Source: Oscillospiraceae bacterium (GTDB lineage Bacteria > Bacillota > Clostridia > Oscillospirales > Acutalibacteraceae). From it: a DNA stretch of 12,071 nucleotides. Within the stretch, counting starts at the first letter, position 1. Each line of letters starts with the position of its first letter. This document shows positions 1-12,071 of the stretch, one piece after another. A model generated the notes under the pieces. The model saw only the letters and a program-made list of their open reading frames with translations. It was not told where the DNA came from and made no database searches. Where the stretch lies: contig CADBOL010000197.1 in assembly GCA_902796295.1 (NCBI GenBank), forward strand, positions 1 through 12,071, in the 5' to 3' direction. A program made the position numbers and the translations under genes.

Positions 1-1346
1 AGAATCGAAAAATCGGCGAAATTGCCCGAGGGGCCGACAAGCGCAAATCCGGGGCCGACATTGTTTATACAGGTGAATACCGAGGTTGTGGTGGTCGTCA
101 GATCAAATCCGTCAAGAGCGACTATTATAATTGATATCGCGATCACAAGCATAAGCATTGAGAAATAGCCGGTGATACCGTTTACAACGCTTTCCTCAAG
201 AGTCCTGCCGTTCAGCTTTATAGACTCAACGCGGCGGGGATTTGCCGCCTTTCTCACGGAGCGGAAGCTGTTCTTTACCAGCACGGCAAGTCTCTGTATT
301 TTAAGACCGCCGCCGGTAGAGCCCGTACACGCGCCGATAAATGTGAGAATGAAGAGCACCGCCTTAGTGATACCCGGCCACATTTCATAATCTACGGATG
401 TGAAGCCCGTTGTCGAAATGATTGAAGTGACCTGGAAGAATGAATAGCGCAGCGATTCGGAAAACGGATGCCTTGTGACGGTAAGATCGAGAGCGATAAT
501 GAATGTGGCCGCGAATATTACTCCGAGATACCATCTGAGCTCCTCATCCTTGAGCGCCGATTTCCACTGCTTGATAAGCAGGAGATAGTAAAGATTGAAA
601 TTGACTCCGAAAAGCATCATAAAAATAGATATGATTACTTCCGCCGAGGGGTTGTTATATCCTCCGATGCTGCTGTTGAGCACCGCAAATCCGCCCGTTC
701 CCGCCGTGCCGAATGCGCTGACTATACTGTCAAAAAGCGGGAATCCGACAACTCTGAGCAGGAATATAAGCAGGAGAGTGAGCCCGATATATATTCCGTA
801 GAGAATTCTTGCCGTGACCGTAACCTTGGAAACGAGTTTACCAACGACAGGGCCCGGCACTTCCGCTTTCATTATGTGGATTGAAGAGCCTTCGGATTTA
901 GGCATAACCGCGAGCACGAAAACCAGTATGCCCATACCGCCGATGAAGTGAGTGAAGCTTCGCCAGAAGAGCATGCATTTAGGCAGTGATTCAATATCCG
1001 TGAGGATGGTGGAGCCTGTTGTGGTGAAACCGGAAACCGTTTCAAAGAAGGCATCCATATAATTCGGTATGCTGCCGCTGATGAAAAACGGCAGGGCTCC
1101 GAATGCGGACATAAGAAGCCACGCGAGAGCGACTATTATATATCCCTCTTTTGAGTAAAGGTTGTTTTTTGACGGTTTTCTTCTGTACAGAATAAGTCCG
1201 GCTGCCGCAAGGATTCCTATTGTTTCGAGAAAGTAAACGGTTTCTTTTTCGCGATATATAAGCCCGATTAAAACGGGAAGCAGTAAAAGGACCGCTTCAA
1301 TAAGCAGAATGGTTCCGAGATAATGGGCTACTTTTTTATAATTCAA
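1..1346 (-). CDS. trkH: TrkH-family potassium uptake channel subunit, 3' end cut by window edge
   Basis: Membrane subunit of a Trk potassium uptake system, expected to form the K+ path and to be gated by the TrkA protein encoded just upstream. Translating the complement gives 448 residues, still open at base 1; the family is usually about 480-490 aa, so some 30-45 residues are missing. The four pore-loop signatures of the SKT (TrkH/KtrB) superfamily are readable: SGFTTTGST near residue 105-113, GTGGF near 216-220, STTGFTS near 311-317 and NNVGPGF close to the left edge. The intramembrane gating loop TGSTGGGLK follows the third filter. The N-terminus (NYKKVAHYLGTILLIEA) matches the usual TrkH start, but the start codon is TTG (1344-1346). 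GGGGTGAT (1352-1359, complement) is the ribosome-binding site and overlaps the trkA stop. It lies 6 nt after trkA and is the last visible gene of the six-gene unit. Confidence 0.93.
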   Translation of the reverse strand, partial: MNYKKVAHYLGTILLIEAVLLLLPVLIGLIYREKETVYFLETIGILAAAGLILYRRKPSKNNLYSKEGYIIVALAWLLMSAFGALPFFISGSIPNYMDAFFETVSGFTTTGSTILTDIESLPKCMLFWRSFTHFIGGMGILVFVLAVMPKSEGSSIHIMKAEVPGPVVGKLVSKVTVTARILYGIYIGLTLLLIFLLRVVGFPLFDSIVSAFGTAGTGGFAVLNSSIGGYNNPSAEVIISIFMMLFGVNFNLYYLLLIKQWKSALKDEELRWYLGVIFAATFIIALDLTVTRHPFSESLRYSFFQVTSIISTTGFTSVDYEMWPGITKAVLFILTFIGACTGSTGGGLKIQRLAVLVKNSFRSVRKAANPRRVESIKLNGRTLEESVVNGITGYFSMLMLVIAISIIIVALDGFDLTTTTTSVFTCINNVGPGFALVGPSGNFADFSI

Positions 1347-1352
1347 CGGATA

Positions 1353-2714
1353 TCACCCCGCTTTGAATATGTCGGTCAGTTTTTTGAGACTCTTTCCCGC
1401 ATTTATAACTATGACATTGTCACCGCTTCTGATGCAGTCATCACCGCCGGGGAACAGTATCTTGCCGTTTCTGATAATGCAGCCGACGAGCAGATTGGGC
1501 CTGAGATCAAGGTCTCTGAAGGCGACATCGTTATAATTCCAGCTGTCCGGAACAACGAATTCCGCCGCCTCGATTTTACCGCCGACGAGCTTGTAAAGCG
1601 TCTGTATCTGAGAGCTGTCCGCAGAGTTTTCGAGAGCCCTGACATATCTTGTCACGAGATCTCCCGCAACTATCTGGGGAGAGACGAGTGTTTCAACCCC
1701 TATCTCGCTGAGAATGGAGTATGAATGTCTGTCAATCTTGGCTATGACTTTTTCAACCTTGCGGCTTTCGGCATAGAGGGATACGATAATATTTTCCTCG
1801 TCAATTCCGGTGAGCGCGACGAGGGCGTCCTGGTTTTCAATGCCCTGCTCCTCGAGCAGATACTGGTCGGTGCCGTCACCGTGAATGACGTTTATATCGG
1901 TAAGCTCATCCGAGAGCGCGTTGCATTTTTTGATATCGGAATCTATCAGAGTGATATTTCGGCCTGTGTCGCTCAGAAGCTCGCTGAGATAAAAGCCGAT
2001 TCTGCCGCCGCCGATTATCATGACATTTTTAATTCTGTGCTTATAAACATTCGTCTGCTTGAGGAATGAGGAAATCTCACTCCTTGAGCCGGTAATATTT
2101 ATTGAATCCTCGCATCTGAGCTCAAAATTACCGTCGGGAATGATGACCTCGCCGTTTCTCTGCACGGCGCAGATAATGACTTTTGCCCTTATCTTACGGC
2201 GTATATCCGCAATTTTCATATTGCACAGAGGGTTATCCGCGTGCAGGATTATCCTCGCTATCTCAACCTTGCCCCTTGCGAAGGAGTCAAGATTTGCGAC
2301 AGAGGGGAATCTGATGATTCTTGAGATTTCATTGGCAGTTTCATACTCGGGGTTTACGGTCATATTAATTCCGATTTTTTCGCGGAGAAACTGACCCTGC
2401 GCCGCATAGACGGGGTTTCTGACTCTGGCTATTGTGTTTTCGGTGCCGAGCTCTTTTGCAAACATACAGCAGAGAATATTGAGCTCATCCGATGCGGTTG
2501 TCGCTATGAGCAGTTTAGCTTTGTCGGCTCCGGCCTCTTTAAGTATGTCAACCGTTGAGCCGTTTCCGCAGATGCCCATTACGTCATACTGCTCGACCAT
2601 AGCCGTTACACGGTCCGCCTTTGTGTCAACAACAACGATATCGTGGCTGTCATTGCACAGACGTTCGGTCAGAGTTGAGCCGAATTTTCCCTGCCCTACG
2701 ATGATTATATACAT
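1353..2714 (-). CDS. trkA: TrkA, double-RCK potassium uptake regulator
   Basis: Cytoplasmic nucleotide-binding gating subunit that partners the TrkH encoded 6 nt downstream. At 453 aa it has the classical TrkA length and duplicated layout. The first Rossmann RCK_N domain has GQGKFG (7-12) and the acidic D30 at the end of the second strand. The first RCK_C domain covers about 140-220. The second Rossmann domain has GGGRIG (235-240) and LIDSD near 256-260. The second RCK_C runs from about 370 to the end. In this family the Rossmann sites bind NAD(H) or ATP/ADP and the RCK_C domains can bind ligands such as c-di-AMP; that is family knowledge and is not visible here. The start ATG follows the MFS stop by 6 nt. 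The ribosome-binding site is weak (AAAGG about 12 nt upstream, inside the previous gene), which suggests coupled translation. Confidence 0.95.
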   Translation of the reverse strand: MYIIIVGQGKFGSTLTERLCNDSHDIVVVDTKADRVTAMVEQYDVMGICGNGSTVDILKEAGADKAKLLIATTASDELNILCCMFAKELGTENTIARVRNPVYAAQGQFLREKIGINMTVNPEYETANEISRIIRFPSVANLDSFARGKVEIARIILHADNPLCNMKIADIRRKIRAKVIICAVQRNGEVIIPDGNFELRCEDSINITGSRSEISSFLKQTNVYKHRIKNVMIIGGGRIGFYLSELLSDTGRNITLIDSDIKKCNALSDELTDINVIHGDGTDQYLLEEQGIENQDALVALTGIDEENIIVSLYAESRKVEKVIAKIDRHSYSILSEIGVETLVSPQIVAGDLVTRYVRALENSADSSQIQTLYKLVGGKIEAAEFVVPDSWNYNDVAFRDLDLRPNLLVGCIIRNGKILFPGGDDCIRSGDNVIVINAGKSLKKLTDIFKAG

Positions 2715-2720
2715 AGAGAA

Positions 2721-4091
2721 TCAGGCCCTTTCTTCAGTTGCTTCGGCTGTTTCCGGCGAGACTGCCGTTTCTGTCTTTTTCCACTCTTTGAGCAGGAAGA
2801 CAAGGGGAATGATAATAAGAACTGCAACCGCGGCGGCTCCGAGGAAGATGTGAGCCGGGGGAACAAGAACCGACTCGCCGTAGTCATTGATATAAGGAGT
2901 ATTTGAAAATCTTTCGGTGATGAATGAACCTATCGCGGGGCCGATAATCATCGGGACCATGACGGTAAATATCATCCTCACTCCCTGGAATGCGCCGACC
3001 TTGTCTTCGGGCGTGAAATCACGCACCGCCGCCGAGATGAGGATTGACATAAGCCCCATGCCGGCAAGGGCGACTATTGCGCATACTGCAAACACAATAA
3101 GCCCTTTTGCAAAGAATACGGCGACAAGTCCCGCTGCAAACAGGAATACCGAAGGCACCGAAAACGGGGCGCGTCCGTATTTATCCATGAGCGAGCCCAT
3201 GACTATTGCTCCCGCTATGACTCCGCCTACAACCAGTACGGCGACGATTGCCACGGGGGGAGTGATATTGAGATTGCCGAAATCAAGACCTATCTGATGC
3301 TGAACATATATGAAAAGATAGGGCATGAATATCTGCACGGCGACATTGAGAATGCAGAAGCAGGCAAGCGAAAGATAGAGTCCTCTGTGACTCGAGATAA
3401 CGGAGGGTCTGAAACCGTAGATGAGATCGGCCCAGAAATTTGTGTTTTTCTTTTCTCCGCTGAGAGAATCCTTCACCGTGAAAAGGCCTATGATACCGCA
3501 GACAGTCACCAGGATGCCGAGGCCTATGAAGCAGGCGGGGTATCCGAATGAGCTTGCGAGAATACCGAAAGCAACCGTTACTATTACAAGAGCAAGCACG
3601 GGGAATGTCGCGAGCATACCTTCGGTTTTGGCGCGGTTTGAGTTGTCTGTGATATCGGTTATCCAGGCGTTGAAAGCGGCGTCATTACTTGTTGAGCCCA
3701 TGAACGTCATAAGACAGTCCATGATTATGACAACGGAGACTGTGGCCGCAAGCGCCGACGCGGGCGCGATGCCGAGAATTCTGCCGATATTCTCTCTTGA
3801 TATAAAGGCAAAAGCCATAACCGTGAAGCCCCAGGCAATGTAGCCGGCGCAGATGAAAACCTTCCTCTTATTGACCTTATCGCTGAGAGTTCCCATGAGG
3901 AGAGTGGCCGCCACCGCGACAACAGAGCTCGCCGCGACCATGTGGGAGATATCGGAGGATGAGCCGCCGATAACATTGAATAAAAACGTATTGAAATAGT
4001 TGTTTTCAACTGCCCACGCAACCTGGCCCATAAAGCCGAAGAGTATGATGTTGAAAACAGCGGCCTTGCCGAGTTTTGTTGATTTAGCCAT
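2721..4091 (-). CDS. MFS transporter, substrate unknown
   Basis: Integral membrane permease of the major facilitator superfamily, 456 aa, with about 12 hydrophobic segments. Motif A-like loops occur in both halves: MGTLSDKVNKRK between helices 2 and 3, and MGSLMDKYGRAPF at the matching place in the second half, as expected for the internal repeat. A hydrophilic linker (VKDSLSGEKKNTNF) lies between the halves and a charged Glu/Thr-rich tail ends the protein. I start it at ATG 4091, not at an in-frame TTG at 4127. GGAGAG (4098-4103, complement) sits 6 nt before this ATG, and the ATG overlaps the upstream phosphoesterase stop in the 8-nt string ATGGCTAA, a typical coupling arrangement. The substrate cannot be told from sequence. 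The opening FGFMGQVAWAVENNYFNTF is of a type seen in sugar or organic-solute MFS carriers. The coupling suggests that its substrate or product is linked to the phosphoesterase. Confidence 0.9.
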   Translation of the reverse strand: MAKSTKLGKAAVFNIILFGFMGQVAWAVENNYFNTFLFNVIGGSSSDISHMVAASSVVAVAATLLMGTLSDKVNKRKVFICAGYIAWGFTVMAFAFISRENIGRILGIAPASALAATVSVVIIMDCLMTFMGSTSNDAAFNAWITDITDNSNRAKTEGMLATFPVLALVIVTVAFGILASSFGYPACFIGLGILVTVCGIIGLFTVKDSLSGEKKNTNFWADLIYGFRPSVISSHRGLYLSLACFCILNVAVQIFMPYLFIYVQHQIGLDFGNLNITPPVAIVAVLVVGGVIAGAIVMGSLMDKYGRAPFSVPSVFLFAAGLVAVFFAKGLIVFAVCAIVALAGMGLMSILISAAVRDFTPEDKVGAFQGVRMIFTVMVPMIIGPAIGSFITERFSNTPYINDYGESVLVPPAHIFLGAAAVAVLIIIPLVFLLKEWKKTETAVSPETAEATEERA

Positions 4092-5217
4092 TTCTTTCTC
4101 TCCGTTCTCTGAAGATTTCTTTGACAAAATATGTTAACAGCCCTGCCGACGCAATCGCGCAGGCGCAGTAATTGAGCGAGTGGACCGCCATAACCTGCCT
4201 GTCCGTAAACCGTTTCATGACGGGACCGAGGCATTCACAGTTGATGCCGAAGTCTTTGAAATATCTGAGCTCCTGACGGAATGAGCCGGGATCGTTTTCG
4301 CTGATTTCAATGAATCTTACGCAGCTGTGACAGCCGTCGGTGTAAGCTCTGAATCCGGCCGTCTTATGCTGCGCGAGAAAGATGCCGTCGACAAATCCCG
4401 AGAAATCATTAAGATGGTCGTGGCCGAAGAATGCCGCCCTGACTCCGCCCGTCCTCTTCCAGGATTCAAACTGACCGTTGTTTATATCGGGTGAGCAGGG
4501 GCCTTCGCCGAGGTAGCCCTGAGTTCCTTCCGCCTTGACAAATCTTGTGCCGCTTTGCTTTCCGAAGCCGTCAACACTCCACGGAATCTCATATAGTTTT
4601 GCGGGCCTGAGAAGTTCATACTCCTCCGGGACGGGTATGTGCTGAAAAATATATGAGGGCATCGGCTTTCCGCCGTTTATTTCTCTGAGCTTTTCGCTTT
4701 CTTTTTCAAACCACTCAATCTGGTCTGTATGAACATAGTCATATTTTGAAGCGCTTTCATCTGCGCAGAGATTGTTTGAGTCGAGAAACCAGAGCGCGGC
4801 GAGTGGCTTTTTGCCGTCATGTGAATAAAGAATCTCTTTGTAATCCGCCTTGCCGGGCACGCCCTCGCATCTCATCATAACTCCGCTGAGCTCCGAGTAT
4901 GCCTTTATGACCTCATCATCGCATCCTGGGTCGTGCTCATGATTTCCCATAATGGCGGCGACGGGGATTCCCTTTGAGGTCATCGGTCTGCAGAGAAGCT
5001 CAATATACTCCGAAAACGCCGCCGGATCATCTCTGCATACCTCTGTGTCAAAAATATCGCCGAGCAGCACGCATAAATCCGGTTTATACCTCTCAAGCGA
5101 GGCATTCATCAGCTTTTGCATATCTTTGAATCTCAGCGATTCTCTGCAATCGGGTTTTTCATGCAGATCGCCGAAGAGTAAAATGCCGAATTTACCGTCT
5201 TTATTGAATTTCAGCAT
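4084..5217 (-). CDS. Calcineurin-type metallophosphoesterase (PAP/DCR2-like) with C-terminal membrane segment
   Basis: Binuclear-metal phosphoesterase of 377 aa. All the usual ligand motifs are present and in order: GDLH (D17, H19), GDIFD (D54), GNHEHD (N92, H93), QHIP (H193) and GHDHLND (H266, H268). The spacing, the QHIPVPEEY block and GHDHLNDF resemble the purple-acid-phosphatase-like or DCR2-like branch, so a phosphomonoesterase or phosphodiesterase activity is expected; the substrate is unknown. There is no N-terminal signal peptide. A hydrophobic stretch near residues 346-366 followed by a basic tail (FRERRERNG) suggests a C-terminal membrane anchor, which would leave the catalytic domain in the cytoplasm; the topology is inferred. 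GGAGG (5225-5229, complement) lies 7 nt before the ATG. The gene starts 18 nt after ktrA and overlaps the MFS gene by 8 nt. Confidence 0.92.
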   Translation of the reverse strand: MLKFNKDGKFGILLFGDLHEKPDCRESLRFKDMQKLMNASLERYKPDLCVLLGDIFDTEVCRDDPAAFSEYIELLCRPMTSKGIPVAAIMGNHEHDPGCDDEVIKAYSELSGVMMRCEGVPGKADYKEILYSHDGKKPLAALWFLDSNNLCADESASKYDYVHTDQIEWFEKESEKLREINGGKPMPSYIFQHIPVPEEYELLRPAKLYEIPWSVDGFGKQSGTRFVKAEGTQGYLGEGPCSPDINNGQFESWKRTGGVRAAFFGHDHLNDFSGFVDGIFLAQHKTAGFRAYTDGCHSCVRFIEISENDPGSFRQELRYFKDFGINCECLGPVMKRFTDRQVMAVHSLNYCACAIASAGLLTYFVKEIFRERRERNG

Positions 5218-5235
5218 ACAGCTGCCTCCGGCGTC

Positions 5236-5886
5236 TTACTGGATTTTGAAGCATTTCTTCAGATCATGCGATTCGCCGAAAACAAGCATGCTGTTGCCTG
5301 AATCAAGACGGGTATCGGGAGTGACGGCAAAGAGCAGTTTCCCGTTTTGTCTCACGGCGATAATGTTGATGCCGTATTTTCTGCGAATATCTATACCGCC
5401 GACGGTTTTTCCTATCCAGTCGGATGGGATATCCACCTCGTAGATGGCATGATCATCGTCAAGCTGGAAGTAATCGAGAATATGATCGGATGTGAATCGC
5501 ACGGCTGTCCATTTCGCAACCTGTTTTTCGGGGTTTACCACGCGGTCCGCCCCGTTTCTGAGCAGGAATTTCGCCTGAACTTCCCTGTCTGCTCTCGCGA
5601 CCACGAGTTTCGCTCCGAGGTCCTTGAGATTGCAGGCGGTTTCAAGCGATGACTGGAAATTATTGCCTATGGCAACGATGCATACATCATAGCTCGGCAC
5701 GTCGAGCTCTTTGAGAAAAGCGACGCTGGTGCTGTCTCCTATCTGAGCATCCGTAACAATCGGAAGAGCGTCATTGACTTTTTTCTCCTCAATGTCAACG
5801 CCCATGATTTCATGGCCGAGTTTGTTGAGCTCTTCGGCAACCTGTGAGCCGAAAACGCCGAGTCCTATAAGTAAAACGGATTTCAT
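5236..5886 (-). CDS. ktrA: KtrA/TrkA-type single-RCK potassium channel regulator
   Basis: Cytoplasmic gating ring subunit for the KtrB channel encoded immediately upstream. It has 216 aa, the normal KtrA/KtrC length. The Rossmann RCK_N domain carries GLGVFG (8-13), with D31 of GVDIEEK at the end of the second strand. An RCK_C domain occupies about residues 140-216 and includes the IGKTVGGIDIRRKYGINIIAVR block typical of the family. KtrA octamers bind ATP/ADP in the Rossmann site and c-di-AMP in RCK_C in well-studied Firmicutes; this is family knowledge. An excellent ribosome-binding site, GGAGGT (5891-5896, complement), precedes the ATG. The 40-nt gap to ktrB has no visible promoter or terminator, so the two are most likely on one transcript. 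Confidence 0.95.
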   Translation of the reverse strand: MKSVLLIGLGVFGSQVAEELNKLGHEIMGVDIEEKKVNDALPIVTDAQIGDSTSVAFLKELDVPSYDVCIVAIGNNFQSSLETACNLKDLGAKLVVARADREVQAKFLLRNGADRVVNPEKQVAKWTAVRFTSDHILDYFQLDDDHAIYEVDIPSDWIGKTVGGIDIRRKYGINIIAVRQNGKLLFAVTPDTRLDSGNSMLVFGESHDLKKCFKIQ

Positions 5887-5926
5887 AATTACCTCCGGTG
5901 TCAGATTCTGAGTATTGAATAAACGG

Positions 5927-7264
5927 TTATCCTACCGTGATTTTTTCGACGGGGGCCTGCGATACGGGCGGTTTCTTTCTGGAAACGGTTGCAAAAATAA
6001 TCGTGAGCCCGCCTACTCTGCCCGTGAACATAAGAATCATGAGTATGATTCTTGACGCTGTTTTCAGCCCGGGAGTGATCCCGAGAGTCAGGCCTACCGT
6101 TGCCAGCGCCGATGCGGATTCAAAAAGGCAGGTGTCAACCGGAAGCCTCTCAATCGAGCTTATGAGCAGGGCGCCGGTAAAAGTGAGAATCAGATAAAAA
6201 AACAGGATGCCGGTCGCGTTTCTGACGATCGAGTCGTCAATCCTTCTTCCGAAAAGCTGGGCGCTTTTTCTGTTTCTTATTATCGACCAGGCGTTGCCCG
6301 CGAGGACACCGAGCGTGGTCGTTTTCATACCGCCGGCAGTCGAGCCGGATGAGCCGCCTATCATCATCAGAATGATTATAATCATCCTGCCGGGGCCCGT
6401 CATCAGCGAGAAATCTGCTGTGTTGAAGCCGGCCGTTCTCGGCGTTACCGCCTGGAATAAGGATTTGAGTATTCTTTCCTTTAAAGGCAGATTTCCGAAA
6501 TCAAATAAAAAGAAGATCAGAGCGGGTACTATTATCAGAACTGCCGAAACCGTGAGCACGGTTTTGCTCTGCATACGGTATCTTTTAAAACGGAACTTGT
6601 GATTTACAAAATCATCCCAGGTCAGGAATCCGATTCCGCCGACCAGAATCAGAAGAGAAACCGTTATGACGAGAAGCGGATTTTCAGCAAATGAGGTGAG
6701 TGAAGAGAACTCTCCGGATTCATTTCCCATAATATCAAATCCGGCGTTGCAGAAGGCGGATACAGAGTGGAAGAAGGCCATCCATATGCCTCTTGCCCTG
6801 AACCGGGAGATGAAGACGGGCATCATAAGCAGAGCGCCCGTGCCTTCAATTATCAGAGAGGCTTTGATGATGAATACGGTCATCTTTACTATTCCGCCCG
6901 TGGTTGAAACGGACATTGCATTCTGCATTGTGCTGCGCTCGAGAAGCGAAATCTTCCTGCCCGCTATCATGGCAAATGATGCCGCCACGGTGACAACTCC
7001 GAGGCCTCCGGTCTGAATCAGCAGGAGTATGATTGCCTGGCCGAAATATGACCAGTGTGTTGCGGTGTCACGGACAACGAGCCCCGTGACGCAGACCGCC
7101 GATGTCGCCGTAAACAGCGCGTCTCCGAAAGGCGTAACCTCTCCGCTCTTTGAGGATACGGGGAGCATGAGTATAAGAGCGCCGATAAATATCACTCCGG
7201 CAAAGCCGGCTATTATTATCTGAAATGTGTTTACTTTGCGTTTTAGATTTCTGAGTTTATTCAT
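5927..7264 (-). CDS. ktrB: KtrB-type potassium uptake channel subunit
   Basis: Membrane K+ translocating subunit of a Ktr system, 445 aa, the usual KtrB length. It has four M1-P-M2 repeats. The selectivity-filter glycines are visible in VCVTGLVV (G61), FCNAGFD (G175), RTAGFNT (G279) and ATVGLTLG (G391). The glycine/serine-rich gating loop GGSSGSTAGGMK (303-314) interrupts the third repeat's second helix, as in KtrB of Bacillus and Vibrio. Ktr systems of this class are often Na+-stimulated (family knowledge). The start ATG at 7264 is preceded by GGAG (7272-7275, complement) at 7 nt. It is the first gene after an extended -10 promoter (7299-7326) and heads the six-gene unit. Its pairing with the single-RCK ktrA separates it from the TrkAH pair at the far end of the same unit. 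Confidence 0.95.
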   Translation of the reverse strand: MNKLRNLKRKVNTFQIIIAGFAGVIFIGALILMLPVSSKSGEVTPFGDALFTATSAVCVTGLVVRDTATHWSYFGQAIILLLIQTGGLGVVTVAASFAMIAGRKISLLERSTMQNAMSVSTTGGIVKMTVFIIKASLIIEGTGALLMMPVFISRFRARGIWMAFFHSVSAFCNAGFDIMGNESGEFSSLTSFAENPLLVITVSLLILVGGIGFLTWDDFVNHKFRFKRYRMQSKTVLTVSAVLIIVPALIFFLFDFGNLPLKERILKSLFQAVTPRTAGFNTADFSLMTGPGRMIIIILMMIGGSSGSTAGGMKTTTLGVLAGNAWSIIRNRKSAQLFGRRIDDSIVRNATGILFFYLILTFTGALLISSIERLPVDTCLFESASALATVGLTLGITPGLKTASRIILMILMFTGRVGGLTIIFATVSRKKPPVSQAPVEKITVG

Positions 7265-7421: not shown

Positions 7422-8306
7422 ATGCCGAGAGTCATTGAGTATAAGATAACCGGAGAATATGACGGGATGAAAATCTACACCTTTATGAAATATAAAAAGG
7501 GATTTTCGGACCGTCTTATCCGCACGCTCAAAAGGACGGAAAACGGGATTTTGCTTAACGGCGGACATGCAAGGACAATTGAGATTCTCAGAGAGGGGGA
7601 TACTCTCAGCGTAACGATGCCCGAAAGCGAAACGGGTATTGAGCCGATAGAGTATTCGCTCAATATCATATACGAGGATGAAGATATACTGGTTATAAAC
7701 AAGCCGCCGGGGCTCGCCATGCATCCGACTCATAATCATCAGGGAGACACACTCGCAAACGCCGTAGCCTACCATCTTGAAAAAGAGGGGAAATCCTGTA
7801 CCTTCAGGGCCGCAGGGCGGCTTGATAAGGGTACCTCCGGCATAGTTACCGTTGCTCTGAATCCGCTCTCGGCCGCAAAGCTCAACGGGAAGGTCAAAAA
7901 GGAATACTTTGCGGTTGTGAAGGGGCATCCCGATGAGAGCGGCACGGTCGATGTGCCGATTTACCGCCCCGACCCGATGAAAACTCTCAGGGCGTGCTCA
8001 TATGAAAAAGGGGTTGAGCCCGCCGTCACTCACTGGAACGTGATAGAATACGGCGACGGCTGCGCGCTTATCCGCCTCAGTCTCGAGACGGGCAGAACAC
8101 ATCAGATAAGGGTACACATGGCGCATATCGGGCATCCTCTCGCCGGAGACACCTATTACGGCGATTTCAGGCCGGAATTCGGCCATCAGCTGCTCCACTG
8201 CGGCAGGGCTGAGCTTATACATCCCGTGACGGGTGAAAAGATGATATTTGAGGCGGAAATACCCGACGAGTTTAAAAAGTGTATGAATATCACAAATTAT
8301 GAATAA
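7422..8306 (+). CDS. RluA-family large-ribosomal-subunit pseudouridine synthase
   Basis: Cytoplasmic enzyme expected to convert specific uridines in 23S rRNA (or tRNA) to pseudouridine. It has 294 aa, typical for the RluA/RluD group. A divergent S4-like RNA-binding segment lies at about residues 15-65. The catalytic domain opens with VINKPPGLAMHPT (91-103) and carries the signature GRLDKGTSG (132-140) with the catalytic Asp135. The later motif ETGRTHQIRVHMAHIGHPLAGD is the conserved RluA active-site strand. The signature usually has Arg/Lys-Asp or Asn where this protein has Lys-Gly, which is within family variation. GGAGG (7413-7417) lies 4 nt before the ATG. Which uridine it modifies cannot be decided from sequence, so no gene symbol is given. 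The gene appears monocistronic: it has its own promoter and the next unit has another. No terminator hairpin is visible after it. Confidence 0.93.
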   Translation: MPRVIEYKITGEYDGMKIYTFMKYKKGFSDRLIRTLKRTENGILLNGGHARTIEILREGDTLSVTMPESETGIEPIEYSLNIIYEDEDILVINKPPGLAMHPTHNHQGDTLANAVAYHLEKEGKSCTFRAAGRLDKGTSGIVTVALNPLSAAKLNGKVKKEYFAVVKGHPDESGTVDVPIYRPDPMKTLRACSYEKGVEPAVTHWNVIEYGDGCALIRLSLETGRTHQIRVHMAHIGHPLAGDTYYGDFRPEFGHQLLHCGRAELIHPVTGEKMIFEAEIPDEFKKCMNITNYE

Positions 8307-8321
8307 ATATTCACTTTTAGC

Positions 8322-8350
8322 TTGATTATTATTCTGTTTTGATGTAAAAT
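8322..8350 (+). promoter_or_regulatory. Sigma-70-type promoter for the amino-acid ABC unit
   Basis: TTGATT (8322-8327), a 17-nt spacer and TAAAAT (8345-8350) lie 37 nt before the permease ATG. GGGAG (8377-8381) serves as its ribosome-binding site. The 81-nt gap holds no operator-like inverted repeat that I can see. Confidence 0.65.
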
Positions 8351-8387
8351 ACAAATCTATTGATTTTATTATTCACGGGAGAAACCC

Positions 8388-9074
8388 ATGGAATGGTTTG
8401 AAAGTTTTAAACAGATATTTGAAAAGTGCTTCATAAGAGAAGACAGATATATGCTTTTTGTGAAGGGCTTTGAGGTAACAATCCGGGTATCGGTAATAGC
8501 GCTGATTCTCGGCGTAATAATAGGTTTTATAATTGCGCTTTGCAATCTCTCAAAGCATAAAGCGCTCAGGGCTGTCGGAAAGGTTTATACCGATGTTATC
8601 AGAGGCACTCCCTCGGTCACTCAGCTGATGCTGATTTATTTTGTTGTTTTTGCTTCTGTCCACTGGCCTAAGTGGATTATAGCCGGAATCGCTTTCGGAA
8701 TTAACTCGGGCGGATATGTCGCCGAAATATTCAGAGCCGGTATTCTTTCGATTGACAGAGGTCAGACGGAAGCCGGCCGCTCACTCGGCCTCAATTCATA
8801 TCAGACAATGACAAAAATAATTCTGCCTCAGGCTTTGAAAAATATCTTCCCGACGCTCTGCAACGAATTTATAGTTTTGATTAAAGAGACGGCTATTGTC
8901 GGATATGTCGGGCTTATGGATATCCAGAAAGCGGGCGACTTCATAAAAAGCGCCACTTATACTCCTTTTGCGCCTTTGATTGCAACGGCAATTATCTATT
9001 ATGTGCTTATAAAACTGCTGACAATTGCTTTGGGCAGAATCGAAAAGGCAATGCGCAAATCCGATATTCGCTGA
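8388..9074 (+). CDS. Polar amino-acid ABC transporter permease (HisM/GlnP family)
   Basis: Membrane-spanning permease of a polar amino-acid importer, 228 aa. It has the HisM-type layout of about five helices. RGTP (72-75) lies at the end of the first cytoplasmic region. The EAA loop that contacts the ATPase starts at EAGRSLGLNSYQT (128-140) and runs on to ILPQALK. ETAIVGYVGL in the fourth helix region is also typical. Only one permease gene is present, so a homodimer is expected. It is the first gene of the unit; its TGA overlaps the GAGGTGA that serves as ribosome-binding site for the ATPase gene 11 nt downstream. The actual amino acid carried cannot be told; glutamine, arginine, cystine or others are all possible for this subfamily. 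Confidence 0.94.
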   Translation: MEWFESFKQIFEKCFIREDRYMLFVKGFEVTIRVSVIALILGVIIGFIIALCNLSKHKALRAVGKVYTDVIRGTPSVTQLMLIYFVVFASVHWPKWIIAGIAFGINSGGYVAEIFRAGILSIDRGQTEAGRSLGLNSYQTMTKIILPQALKNIFPTLCNEFIVLIKETAIVGYVGLMDIQKAGDFIKSATYTPFAPLIATAIIYYVLIKLLTIALGRIEKAMRKSDIR

Positions 9075-9085
9075 GGTGACGGGTT

Positions 9086-9808
9086 ATGATTGAAGTAAAA
9101 AATCTCAGGAAGCATTTCGGAGACAACGAAGTGCTCCGCGGAATCAGCGAGCATATATCAAAAGGTGAGGTCGTTGCGGTAATAGGCCCGTCCGGGTCAG
9201 GTAAATCAACTTTTTTGCGCTGCCTGAATCAGCTTGAAGAAACCACCGAGGGTGAAATATATGTTGACGGTGAGCTGATAAACAGCAAAAAAGCGGATAT
9301 AAACGCCATAAGGCAAAAAATGGGTATGGTTTTCCAGCATTTCAACCTTTTTCCTCATCTTACCGTTAAAGAAAACATAACTCTCGCTCCGCTGACTCTC
9401 AAAAAAATGAATAAAGACGAAGCAGACAAAAAGGCAAATGAGCTTCTTGAAAGAGTCGGACTGGCGGATAAAGCCGAAGTTTATCCCTCTTCGCTATCCG
9501 GCGGTCAGAAGCAGAGAGTCGCCATTGCCAGAGCTCTTGCGATGAATCCCGAGATAATGCTCTTTGACGAGCCGACAAGCGCGCTTGACCCCGAAATGGT
9601 CGGTGAAGTGCTTGATGTTATAAAATCCCTCGCGGAGAGCGGAATGACAATGGTAATAGTGACTCATGAAATGGGATTTGCCCGCGAAGCTGCAGACAGA
9701 GTTCTGTTTATGGACCGCGGCGTAATTCTCGAGCAGGGAACCCCGCAGGAGGTTTTCGGCAATCCTCAGGATGAACGGACCAGGCTGTTTCTCAGCAAGG
9801 TTCTTTAA
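9086..9808 (+). CDS. Polar amino-acid ABC transporter ATPase (GlnQ/HisP family)
   Basis: Cytoplasmic ATP-hydrolysing subunit of the importer, 240 aa, full family length. Visible in order are Walker [10 protein letters not shown] (34-42), the Q-loop VFQH (Q84), the ABC signature [15 protein letters not shown] (137-151), Walker B IMLFDEP (157-163), the D-loop SALD (165-168) and the switch histidine in VTHE (H194). All catalytic residues are intact. The sequence [13 protein letters not shown] is characteristic of the polar amino-acid branch. The gene sits between permease and binding-protein genes in the same orientation, with gaps of 11 and 22 nt. Confidence 0.96.
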
Positions 9809-9830
9809 TAAATATAAGGAGTAAAAAAAT

Positions 9831-10610
9831 ATGAAAAAAACTATCAGAATACTCGCACTTGTATTTGCGGCGGCAATCACAATCGGCTTGTTTTCCGCTT
9901 GCGGCAGCAACGATTCCGGCAATCAGCTTGTATTCGGCACAAACGCCGAGTTTCCCCCGTTTGAGTCTGTAGCGGCTGACGGTGTGATTTCATCTGTTGA
10001 CGGCACTCAGAAATTTGACGGTATTGACATGGTTATCGCAAACAAAATCGGCGAAAAATACGGCAAAACCGCAGTCATCAACAACATGGAGTTTGATTCA
10101 CTCCTCGTTGCGCTTAAAAACGGTCAGATAGACGCCTGCATAGCCGGTATGACAATTACCGAAGAGAGAAAAGAATCCGTTGATTTTTCAATCCCCTATT
10201 ACACGGCAACACAGGTCATGATTGTAAAAGAAGATGCGGATATCAAAAAGGCATCGGATCTGGAAGGTAAAAAGATTTCCGTTGTACAGGGCTACACCGG
10301 TGAAACTGTTGTCAAAGAGCTCGGCTTTGAGTACGAGACATTCAAGAAGGGTACGGAATGCATTCTTGAGCTTGTAAACGGAAAATGCGATGCTGTTGTA
10401 ATCGACTCGGCAACCGCGGAAAAATATGTTGCCGACAACGAGGGCCTTATCATTGTCAAGGACGCGGAAGCTTTTGAATCCGAGGAATACGGTATAGCGG
10501 TTGCAAAAGGCAACACCGAGCTTCTTGAGCAGATTAACGCCGCAATTCAGGAAATGCTTGATGACGGCACAATTTCCTCCCTGGCAGTTCAGTATACCGA
10601 AGAAGCATAA
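9831..10610 (+). CDS. Amino-acid ABC transporter substrate-binding lipoprotein
   Basis: Extracellular, membrane-anchored solute-binding protein (SBP family 3), 259 aa, which delivers an amino acid to the importer encoded upstream. The N-terminus has a basic start (MKKTIR), a hydrophobic core and a lipobox ending in Cys24 (LFSAC), then a Ser/Asn/Gly linker, as in Gram-positive lipoproteins. Phe at -3 of the lipobox is slightly unusual but common enough. Family blocks are GTNAEFPPFES (36-46), GIDMVIANKIGEKYG, the MTITEERKESVDFS block, and SVVQGYTGE. AAGGAG (9816-9821) lies 9 nt before the ATG. The ligand is not predictable by eye. With only one permease, one ATPase and one binding protein, the importer is complete and minimal. 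Confidence 0.95.
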   Translation: MKKTIRILALVFAAAITIGLFSACGSNDSGNQLVFGTNAEFPPFESVAADGVISSVDGTQKFDGIDMVIANKIGEKYGKTAVINNMEFDSLLVALKNGQIDACIAGMTITEERKESVDFSIPYYTATQVMIVKEDADIKKASDLEGKKISVVQGYTGETVVKELGFEYETFKKGTECILELVNGKCDAVVIDSATAEKYVADNEGLIIVKDAEAFESEEYGIAVAKGNTELLEQINAAIQEMLDDGTISSLAVQYTEEA

Positions 10611-11840: not shown

Positions 11841-11869
11841 TTGAAAATCACGCAAGCCTGTGCTATACT
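11841..11869 (+). promoter_or_regulatory. Strong extended -10 promoter in front of the structured leader
   Basis: TTGAAA (11841-11846), a 17-nt spacer and TATACT (11864-11869), with TGC directly before the -10. This is the closest to consensus of the plus-strand promoters here. The expected start, 7 nt after the -10, is G11876, exactly the first base of the 13-bp closing stem of the RNA described next. Confidence 0.8.
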
Positions 11870-11996
11870 GTATATGCGACATAAATCAGATACATTGCTT
11901 AACACAAGAGGTGTGCTTTTTTGCTTTCGGCAAAAATGCATGCTCATATAAGCATATCCGCTTGTGTTATGTTTAATGATTTGTGTCGCAGCAAAT

Positions 11997-12025
11997 GGAG
12001 CTATGCGTTTTTCGTGCGCGGCTCC
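11997..12025 (+). promoter_or_regulatory. Candidate antiterminator hairpin
   Basis: GGAGCTATGCG (11997-12007) can pair with TGCGCGGCTCC (12015-12025) around the loop TTTTTCG: 11 positions with three G-U pairs and one A-C mismatch. Its right arm takes in nearly all of the left arm of the terminator stem, so the two folds exclude each other. Confidence 0.4.
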
Positions 12026-12040
12026 GGCTGCGCACTTTTT
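12014..12040 (+). terminator. GC-rich intrinsic terminator (attenuator) at the end of the leader
   Basis: GTGCGCGGC (12014-12022) pairs with GCTGCGCAC (12027-12035): 9 pairs, one of them G-U, with loop TCCG. TTTTTATT follows immediately. It stands only about 20 nt before a possible ribosome-binding site, the place expected of an attenuator and not of an ordinary gene-end terminator. Confidence 0.75.
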
Positions 12041-12060
12041 ATTACTAATCTTATTACTAT

Positions 12061-12064
12061 AGGA
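12061..12064 (+). promoter_or_regulatory. Possible ribosome-binding site of a gene starting just past the window
   Basis: AGGA lies 7 nt from the right edge, so a start codon at about 12072-12075 would be correctly spaced. No start codon is visible inside the window, so this is a placement argument only. Confidence 0.4.
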
Positions 12065-12071
12065 ATCTTTA

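Follow-up and report, generated by a model that had tools for sequence, protein, structure and literature searches.

The right-hand end of this stretch raises the question of what an extended −10 promoter, a set of nested stems and an intrinsic terminator are doing in such close succession, with a Shine-Dalgarno-like sequence 7 nt from the edge. The window, by which we mean the whole stretch of DNA that was analyzed, is the entire contig C197 (12071 bases) of a 79%-complete assembly of 2.04 Mb. We propose, with a probability of about three in four and on comparative evidence, that the feature is one copy of a set of promoter-bearing transcription attenuators of Clostridia, in which a pseudoknot would gate a terminator/antiterminator switch in response to one shared signal. 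The promoter, the nested stems, the 9-bp terminator with its five T's and the AGGA near the edge, all of which the original prediction had read from the letters, are present (Table 1); the closing stem (P1) likewise exists and adjoins the promoter, with a length of 14 bp in the fold instead of the 13 bp first given. P1 begins 5 nt past the −10 element, and transcription is therefore expected to start at its first or second base (11875/11876). A12071 could be the first base of the ATG of the right-hand gene, the start codon then lying beyond the contig. The 231-nt leader folds at −81.6 kcal/mol, 6.6 standard deviations below 200 dinucleotide shuffles, and the 166-nt core folds with a z score of −5.92. 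The 27-nt stretch 12041-12067 has no second occurrence in the assembly at up to 3 mismatches, and no overlapping contig was found there.

Table 1. Features of the leader at the right-hand end of the window
Feature	Position	Strand	Basis or remark
−35 element, TTGAAA	11841-11846	+	Sequence
Spacer between −35 and −10, window promoter	17 nt	+	Sequence
Extended −10: TG 11861-11862; TGC plus TATACT 11861-11869; TATACT 11864-11869	11861-11869	+	Sequence
Whole promoter	11841-11869	+	Sequence; layout common to most of 210 copies
P1, 5′ strand	11875-11888	+	Fold, covariation, held-out copies
P1, 3′ strand	11977-11990	+	Fold, covariation, held-out copies
P2 stem	11909-11963	+	Conserved part 11909-11916 with 11952-11963; outer extension varies among copies
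P3, small U/A-rich apical hairpin	11918-11936	+	Window fold
Pseudoknot strand a	11930-11946	+	Covariation with 11997-12013
Pseudoknot strand b, also 5′ strand of the alternative antiterminator hairpin	11997-12013	+	Covariation, pairing
Antiterminator partner strand, pairs with 11997-12007	12015-12025	+	Complementarity; overlaps terminator 5′ strand
Intrinsic terminator	12014-12040	+	9-bp stem 12014-12022/12027-12035, then T12036-12040
Shine-Dalgarno-like AGGA of the gene beyond the edge	12061-12064	+	Sequence; ends 7 nt from contig edge

Other genes of the window were named by eye. On the minus strand (3-7264), a transporter and a phosphoesterase lie between two potassium-uptake-like pairs, one resembling TrkH/TrkA and the other KtrB/KtrA; on the plus strand (7422-10610), a pseudouridine-synthase-like gene is followed by an amino acid ABC transporter set (permease, ATPase, and binding protein).

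Stretches similar to the leader were found by a DNA search in 56 of 291 genomes of the same class, the own genome included. Thirty-one full-length copies were recovered, and 25 were aligned, with three divergent copies left out of this alignment, from which a covariance model (R1) was built. R1 matched 30 of 60 near relatives (49 candidates scored per genome) and 99 of 391 genomes of the class, the own genome being counted in both; in a draw of 398 genomes across the phylum, about 383 of them in other classes as judged from the order of the best 21 of the 398 rows, it matched the own genome and none of the 397 others. The class and phylum counts are lower bounds, because 7 candidates were scored per genome. 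Ten genomes picked as copy-rich gave 7, 20, 17, 27, 11, 16, 8, 27, 10, and 24 matches (150 candidates scored). A 33-position pattern hit at least 119 stretches in named species genomes, and the 80 pattern matches listed are all from uncultured or metagenome-assembled records whose names are of Clostridia type and many of which come from ruminant guts; the class carrying the element is, we infer, Clostridia. Two records from human feces labeled Bacteriophage sp. (MT837627.1, positions 2228-2360, and MT835845.1, positions 2114-2230) contain element matches of 75 to 77% that span 53 to 60% of the query. Running the leader against Rfam 15, as the original prediction had advised, returned no family (T-box, 6S, or riboswitch class) for the window at the gathering threshold, and with E values up to 5 in six sources the sole match overlapping an element was Hrs12 in copy L023, at 25.3 bits against a gathering score of 70.

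Covariation was ranked over 11325 column pairs in 211 nonredundant copies (effective number, 48.6), 186 of which had not been used in drawing the structure and formed the held-out set; the covariation and pairing tests ignore kinship among copies. In the first 25 copies, the structure drawn by hand was paired in 93.6% of 861 cells and contained 62 double-changed cells, compared to 14.6 in shuffles, and RNAalifold recovered P1, P2, and the terminator unaided, P3 being absent from its consensus. Pairs of P1 ranked 1, 3, 9, 11, 14, 17, and 54 (the others 148, 817, and 8302), and the stem was 97.8% paired in held-out copies. Those of the terminator ranked 2, 5, 7, 8, 10, 19, and 23, with two near-invariant pairs beyond 4200, and 98.9% of 1880 cells were paired (98.8% in held-out copies). 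P2 gave ranks of 12, 63, 99, and 264, with four pairs beyond 1600, and was 87.7% paired in held-out copies versus 73.5% for the best slid version. P3 varies little among copies, so that covariation probes it weakly; the pseudoknot makes use of the 3′ strand of this hairpin as well. Among the 23 top covarying column pairs, five fall outside the drawn structure. Binding energies computed with a copy's own rather than swapped partner strands gave z scores of −31.7 for P1, −32.4 for the terminator, −19.2 for the pseudoknot, and −8.6 for the antiterminator, compared to −3.0 to +2.3 for ten nonpairing control combinations. Wobble pairs are kept in P1 and the terminator, which argues for a structure of RNA rather than DNA. 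Taken together, these comparisons show conserved RNA helices at P1, P2, and the terminator, and the second guess of the original prediction, a riboregulator yet to be catalogued, fits this strong covariation together with the lack of an Rfam match.

The helix formed by strands a and b crosses P1 and is therefore a pseudoknot; it ends at 12013, exactly where the terminator stem starts. Eight of its 16 pairs ranked 4, 16, 18, 22, 30, 31, 41, and 52 of 11325 in covariation, and the other eight, several of them nearly invariant, ranked from 271 to 6961; pairs 11930-12013 and 11946-11997 were added after the 211-copy covariation result. Over the 211 copies, 95.1% of 3356 cells were paired and 164 were double changed, while slid versions reached at most 60.7% and 55 cells; in the held-out copies, the values were 94.9% (versus at most 60.4% slid) and 153 double-changed cells. 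Among 500 shuffles of the first 25 copies, none reached the number of double-changed cells, 2 the covariation score, 2 the percentage paired, 10 the number of pairs with a double change, and 45 the number of further pair types. The antiterminator was paired in 93.5% of 2286 cells, compared to at most 59.6% when slid (93.5% versus 59.8% in held-out copies). Its covariation is weak: the best ranks were 32 and 98, there were 72 double-changed cells against up to 59 in slid versions, and when the first 25 copies were shuffled 500 times, its percentage paired was reached 86 times and its covariation score 65 times. It is conserved as complementarity and could be a by-product of the constraints on the terminator and the pseudoknot. 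Inspected by eye, the window copy has standard pairs at 15 of 16 pseudoknot positions and at 10 of 11 antiterminator positions. Mean energies were −16.3 kcal/mol for the pseudoknot, −13.0 kcal/mol for the antiterminator hairpin, and −16.0 kcal/mol for the terminator hairpin; rival helices within about 3 kcal/mol of each other have the kind of balance that a switch needs.

In the mechanism that we propose, transcription would start at P1, P2 and P3 would fold, and strand b would then emerge from the RNA polymerase. Capture of strand b by the P2 loop, as the pseudoknot, would block the antiterminator, the terminator would fold, and transcription would stop near 12040. A signal, either a small ligand or a protein, acting on the P1/P2/P3 domain would hold the loop strand in P3 or keep it otherwise occupied; the antiterminator could then form, and the downstream gene would be read. 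That transcription terminates here, that the RNA switches and in which direction, and that a ligand exists are inferences. Termination by default is the direction that we somewhat favor, with almost the same likelihood for the reverse, in which the signal would stabilize the pseudoknot and switch the gene off. Since the sensor is kept in copies that precede unrelated genes, these copies probably answer one common signal.

The surroundings of the helices are conserved as well. Promoter layout was scored as the raw best match in a short stretch in the 210 copies with upstream sequence, including the window. The −10 element matched at 5 or more of 6 positions in 188 of these and was preceded by TGn in 194; the distance from −10 to P1 was exactly 5 nt in 179, the spacer was 17 nt in 175, and the −35 element matched at 4 or more of 6 positions in 162. 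On the other side, 224 of 229 distinct copies had enough downstream sequence (the window excluded), and in 147 of the 224 a Shine-Dalgarno sequence and start codon followed within 60 nt past the terminator, compared to 175 of 2165 control points (8%). The start codon lay at a median distance of +20 and, in 113 of the 147, at +17 to +24. Promoter, leader of ∼165 nt, and terminator recur as one unit across the copies compared, and in these 147 copies a conserved structured leader is situated directly upstream of a gene, as is typical of riboswitches. This open reading frame behind most other copies also supports the expectation that the right-hand gene of the window is under premature termination. 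No gene began within 60 nt in the other 77 copies; 39 of them had a Shine-Dalgarno sequence and an open reading frame of at least 60 amino acids at 60 to 300 nt.

These 77 copies, each with its own promoter and terminator, suggest a different reading, in which the terminated transcript of ∼165 nt is the trans-acting product of a small-RNA gene and the proximity of genes is secondary; a few of the orphan copies also have an inverted tail behind the terminator. We consider this unlikely, because an independent small-RNA gene would not need the narrow distance to Shine-Dalgarno sequence and start codon seen in the 147 gene-linked copies, and the antiterminator complementarity would serve nothing.

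The inverted tail repeats, in inverted and degenerate form, the P1 3′ strand together with the linker and the pseudoknot strand; it lies no more than about 50 nt behind the terminator in some gene-less copies. It is clear in L101, weaker in L015 and L130, and visible by eye below a z score of 4 in L126 and L139. Above a z score of 4, it was found in 7 of 77 orphan copies versus 1 of 147 gene-linked copies, and read-through RNA of such copies could form one long hairpin around the terminator. The P1 5′ strand recurs at a distance of up to 170 nt in 21 of 77 orphan copies (some of these being tandem elements), in 9 of 147 gene-linked copies, and in 7.7% of shuffles.

A dispersed mobile repeat (REP or MITE like) that carries a promoter by chance would account for the 7 to 27 copies per genome in the ten copy-rich genomes. 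It would also account for tandem copies, for the 15 of 100 copies whose nearest neighbor is in the same genome (shuffle mean, 2.3), and for the neighborhoods of the orthologous upstream gene, of which nine out of ten were informative and had no element immediately behind it. Such a family should be homogeneous within a genome, but the likeness of copies before different genes was 0.670 within genomes (49 pairs) and 0.664 between genomes (3364 pairs). The retention of RNA-type wobble pairs, the narrow spacing to start codons, and the lack of any match to the strict 33-position pattern in the viral contig collection also argue against a mobile repeat, which we regard as very unlikely. Of the tandem copies, 20 neighboring pairs share a strand and lie no more than 400 nt apart, the spacing being 47 to 154 nt in 18 pairs; tandems of two or three elements on one strand are seen at L007, L063, L109, L116, L139, L164, L184, L211, L216, and others.

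Attenuation coupled to translation of a leader peptide, the arrangement of antibiotic-inducible resistance genes, can practically be dismissed: a start-like codon stands at 12003-12005 in 183 of 211 copies and opens a frame of 19 codons in the window, but lengths through the terminator fall in all three phases (83, 77, and 51 of 211), so that the frame is not kept, the GGAG lies merely 2 nt before this codon, the bases at 12003 are accounted for by pseudoknot pairing, and the genes behind 147 copies show no ribosomal-protection motif. The tet(W)-like gene that was the first guess of the original prediction, the window's own downstream gene lying off the contig, has likewise found no support. 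The leader matched none of the 72,556 plasmid and 20,395 Escherichia coli records searched, and the elongation-factor-type motif was absent from the first 80 residues of the 147 genes behind other copies. In the 79%-complete assembly, no ribosomal-protection protein exceeded the curated cutoff of 775 bits, the highest score being 407.5 bits, and all 14 control genomes also matched this profile below the cutoff, with none above it. A role of LoaP-dependent antitermination was rejected: none of 20 genomes (10 element rich and 10 element free) exceeded the cutoff of the profile that we take to be that of LoaP, the name under which the search returned it, and 19 of them matched below the cutoff, as did 13 of 14 control genomes.

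The right-hand gene of the window cannot be deduced from synteny: of ten neighborhoods around the upstream metallophosphoesterase gene elsewhere in the genus, the nine informative ones give no element at the equivalent site. They contain one element, which is 2 kb away and before another gene, and in the closest relative (85% identity), the uninformative one, the stretch stops 187 nt past the gene, with no clear similarity to the promoter region. Among 136 genes behind other copies, the commonest Pfam family was LRR_5 (BspA type), with 32 genes, followed at a distance by AMP-binding (5), Cu_amine_oxidN1 (5), and SLH (3), the best 25 of 58 families being listed. A crude signal-peptide rule, applied with no control, called 84 of the 147 downstream products secreted. 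A secreted or leucine-rich-repeat protein would be the likeliest guess for the window, going by class frequency. In the own genome, LRR_5 (BspA type) was matched on 14 contigs; the window could not be connected to any of these. Small cysteine-rich proteins with a start resembling IDxTGIxLxPGNxGKDCxGN stand behind the element in several genomes (L021, L023, L025, L026, L061, L100, L105, L116, and L122).

The attenuator proposed here has relatives among known systems. preQ1 and fluoride riboswitches terminate transcription and have a pseudoknot that competes with the antiterminator; the element appears to share with them a structured 5′ leader, a pseudoknot, and mutually exclusive antiterminator and terminator before start codons. 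It differs from both in having no Rfam match, in the conservation of promoter and expression platform along with the sensor, and in the genes behind it, which are mostly unrelated, are in many cases for secreted products, and show no evident common metabolic pathway. The c-di-GMP riboswitches of Clostridia control surface genes and, like the element, occur several times per genome in front of a variety of surface or adhesion genes; however, the architecture is different and there is no similarity at Rfam thresholds.

Computational surveys of human microbiomes have yielded candidate structured RNAs that immediately precede genes of gut bacteria (PMC8040213), and the present element resembles them in this respect; the passages compared describe no such motif before surface-protein genes, although many motifs of that study are unnamed. 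Riboswitch expression platforms are described as very diverse in sequence (PMC13273304), and the joint conservation of promoter, sensor, and terminator is unusual in this light. Searches of the open-license PMC literature (tables and supplements outside the scope) turned up no matching RNA, and the consensus 12-mer, whether written as DNA or as RNA, occurred only in four papers with unrelated titles. A leader that terminates or reads through is of a known kind; a portable unit of promoter, sensor, and platform before unrelated genes, many of them for surface proteins, is new as far as our tests extend.

A bolder extension, which we hold to be improbable, is that the cassettes, up to two dozen per genome, form a genome-wide portable RNA operating unit by which one signal sets surface-protein display, and that the short terminated RNAs could couple copies in trans. 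Pseudoknot strands from different copies still pair (mean, −13.8 kcal/mol, versus −16.3 kcal/mol with their own partners), which makes such cross talk conceivable.

Of the class genomes sampled, one in four (99 of 391) carries this uncatalogued RNA, which appears to gate many proteins that are displayed at the surface or secreted. Should it be a riboswitch, then rumen and gut Clostridia would use its ligand as a signal to alter their cell surface; if it is gated by a protein, then it would point to a new antitermination system.
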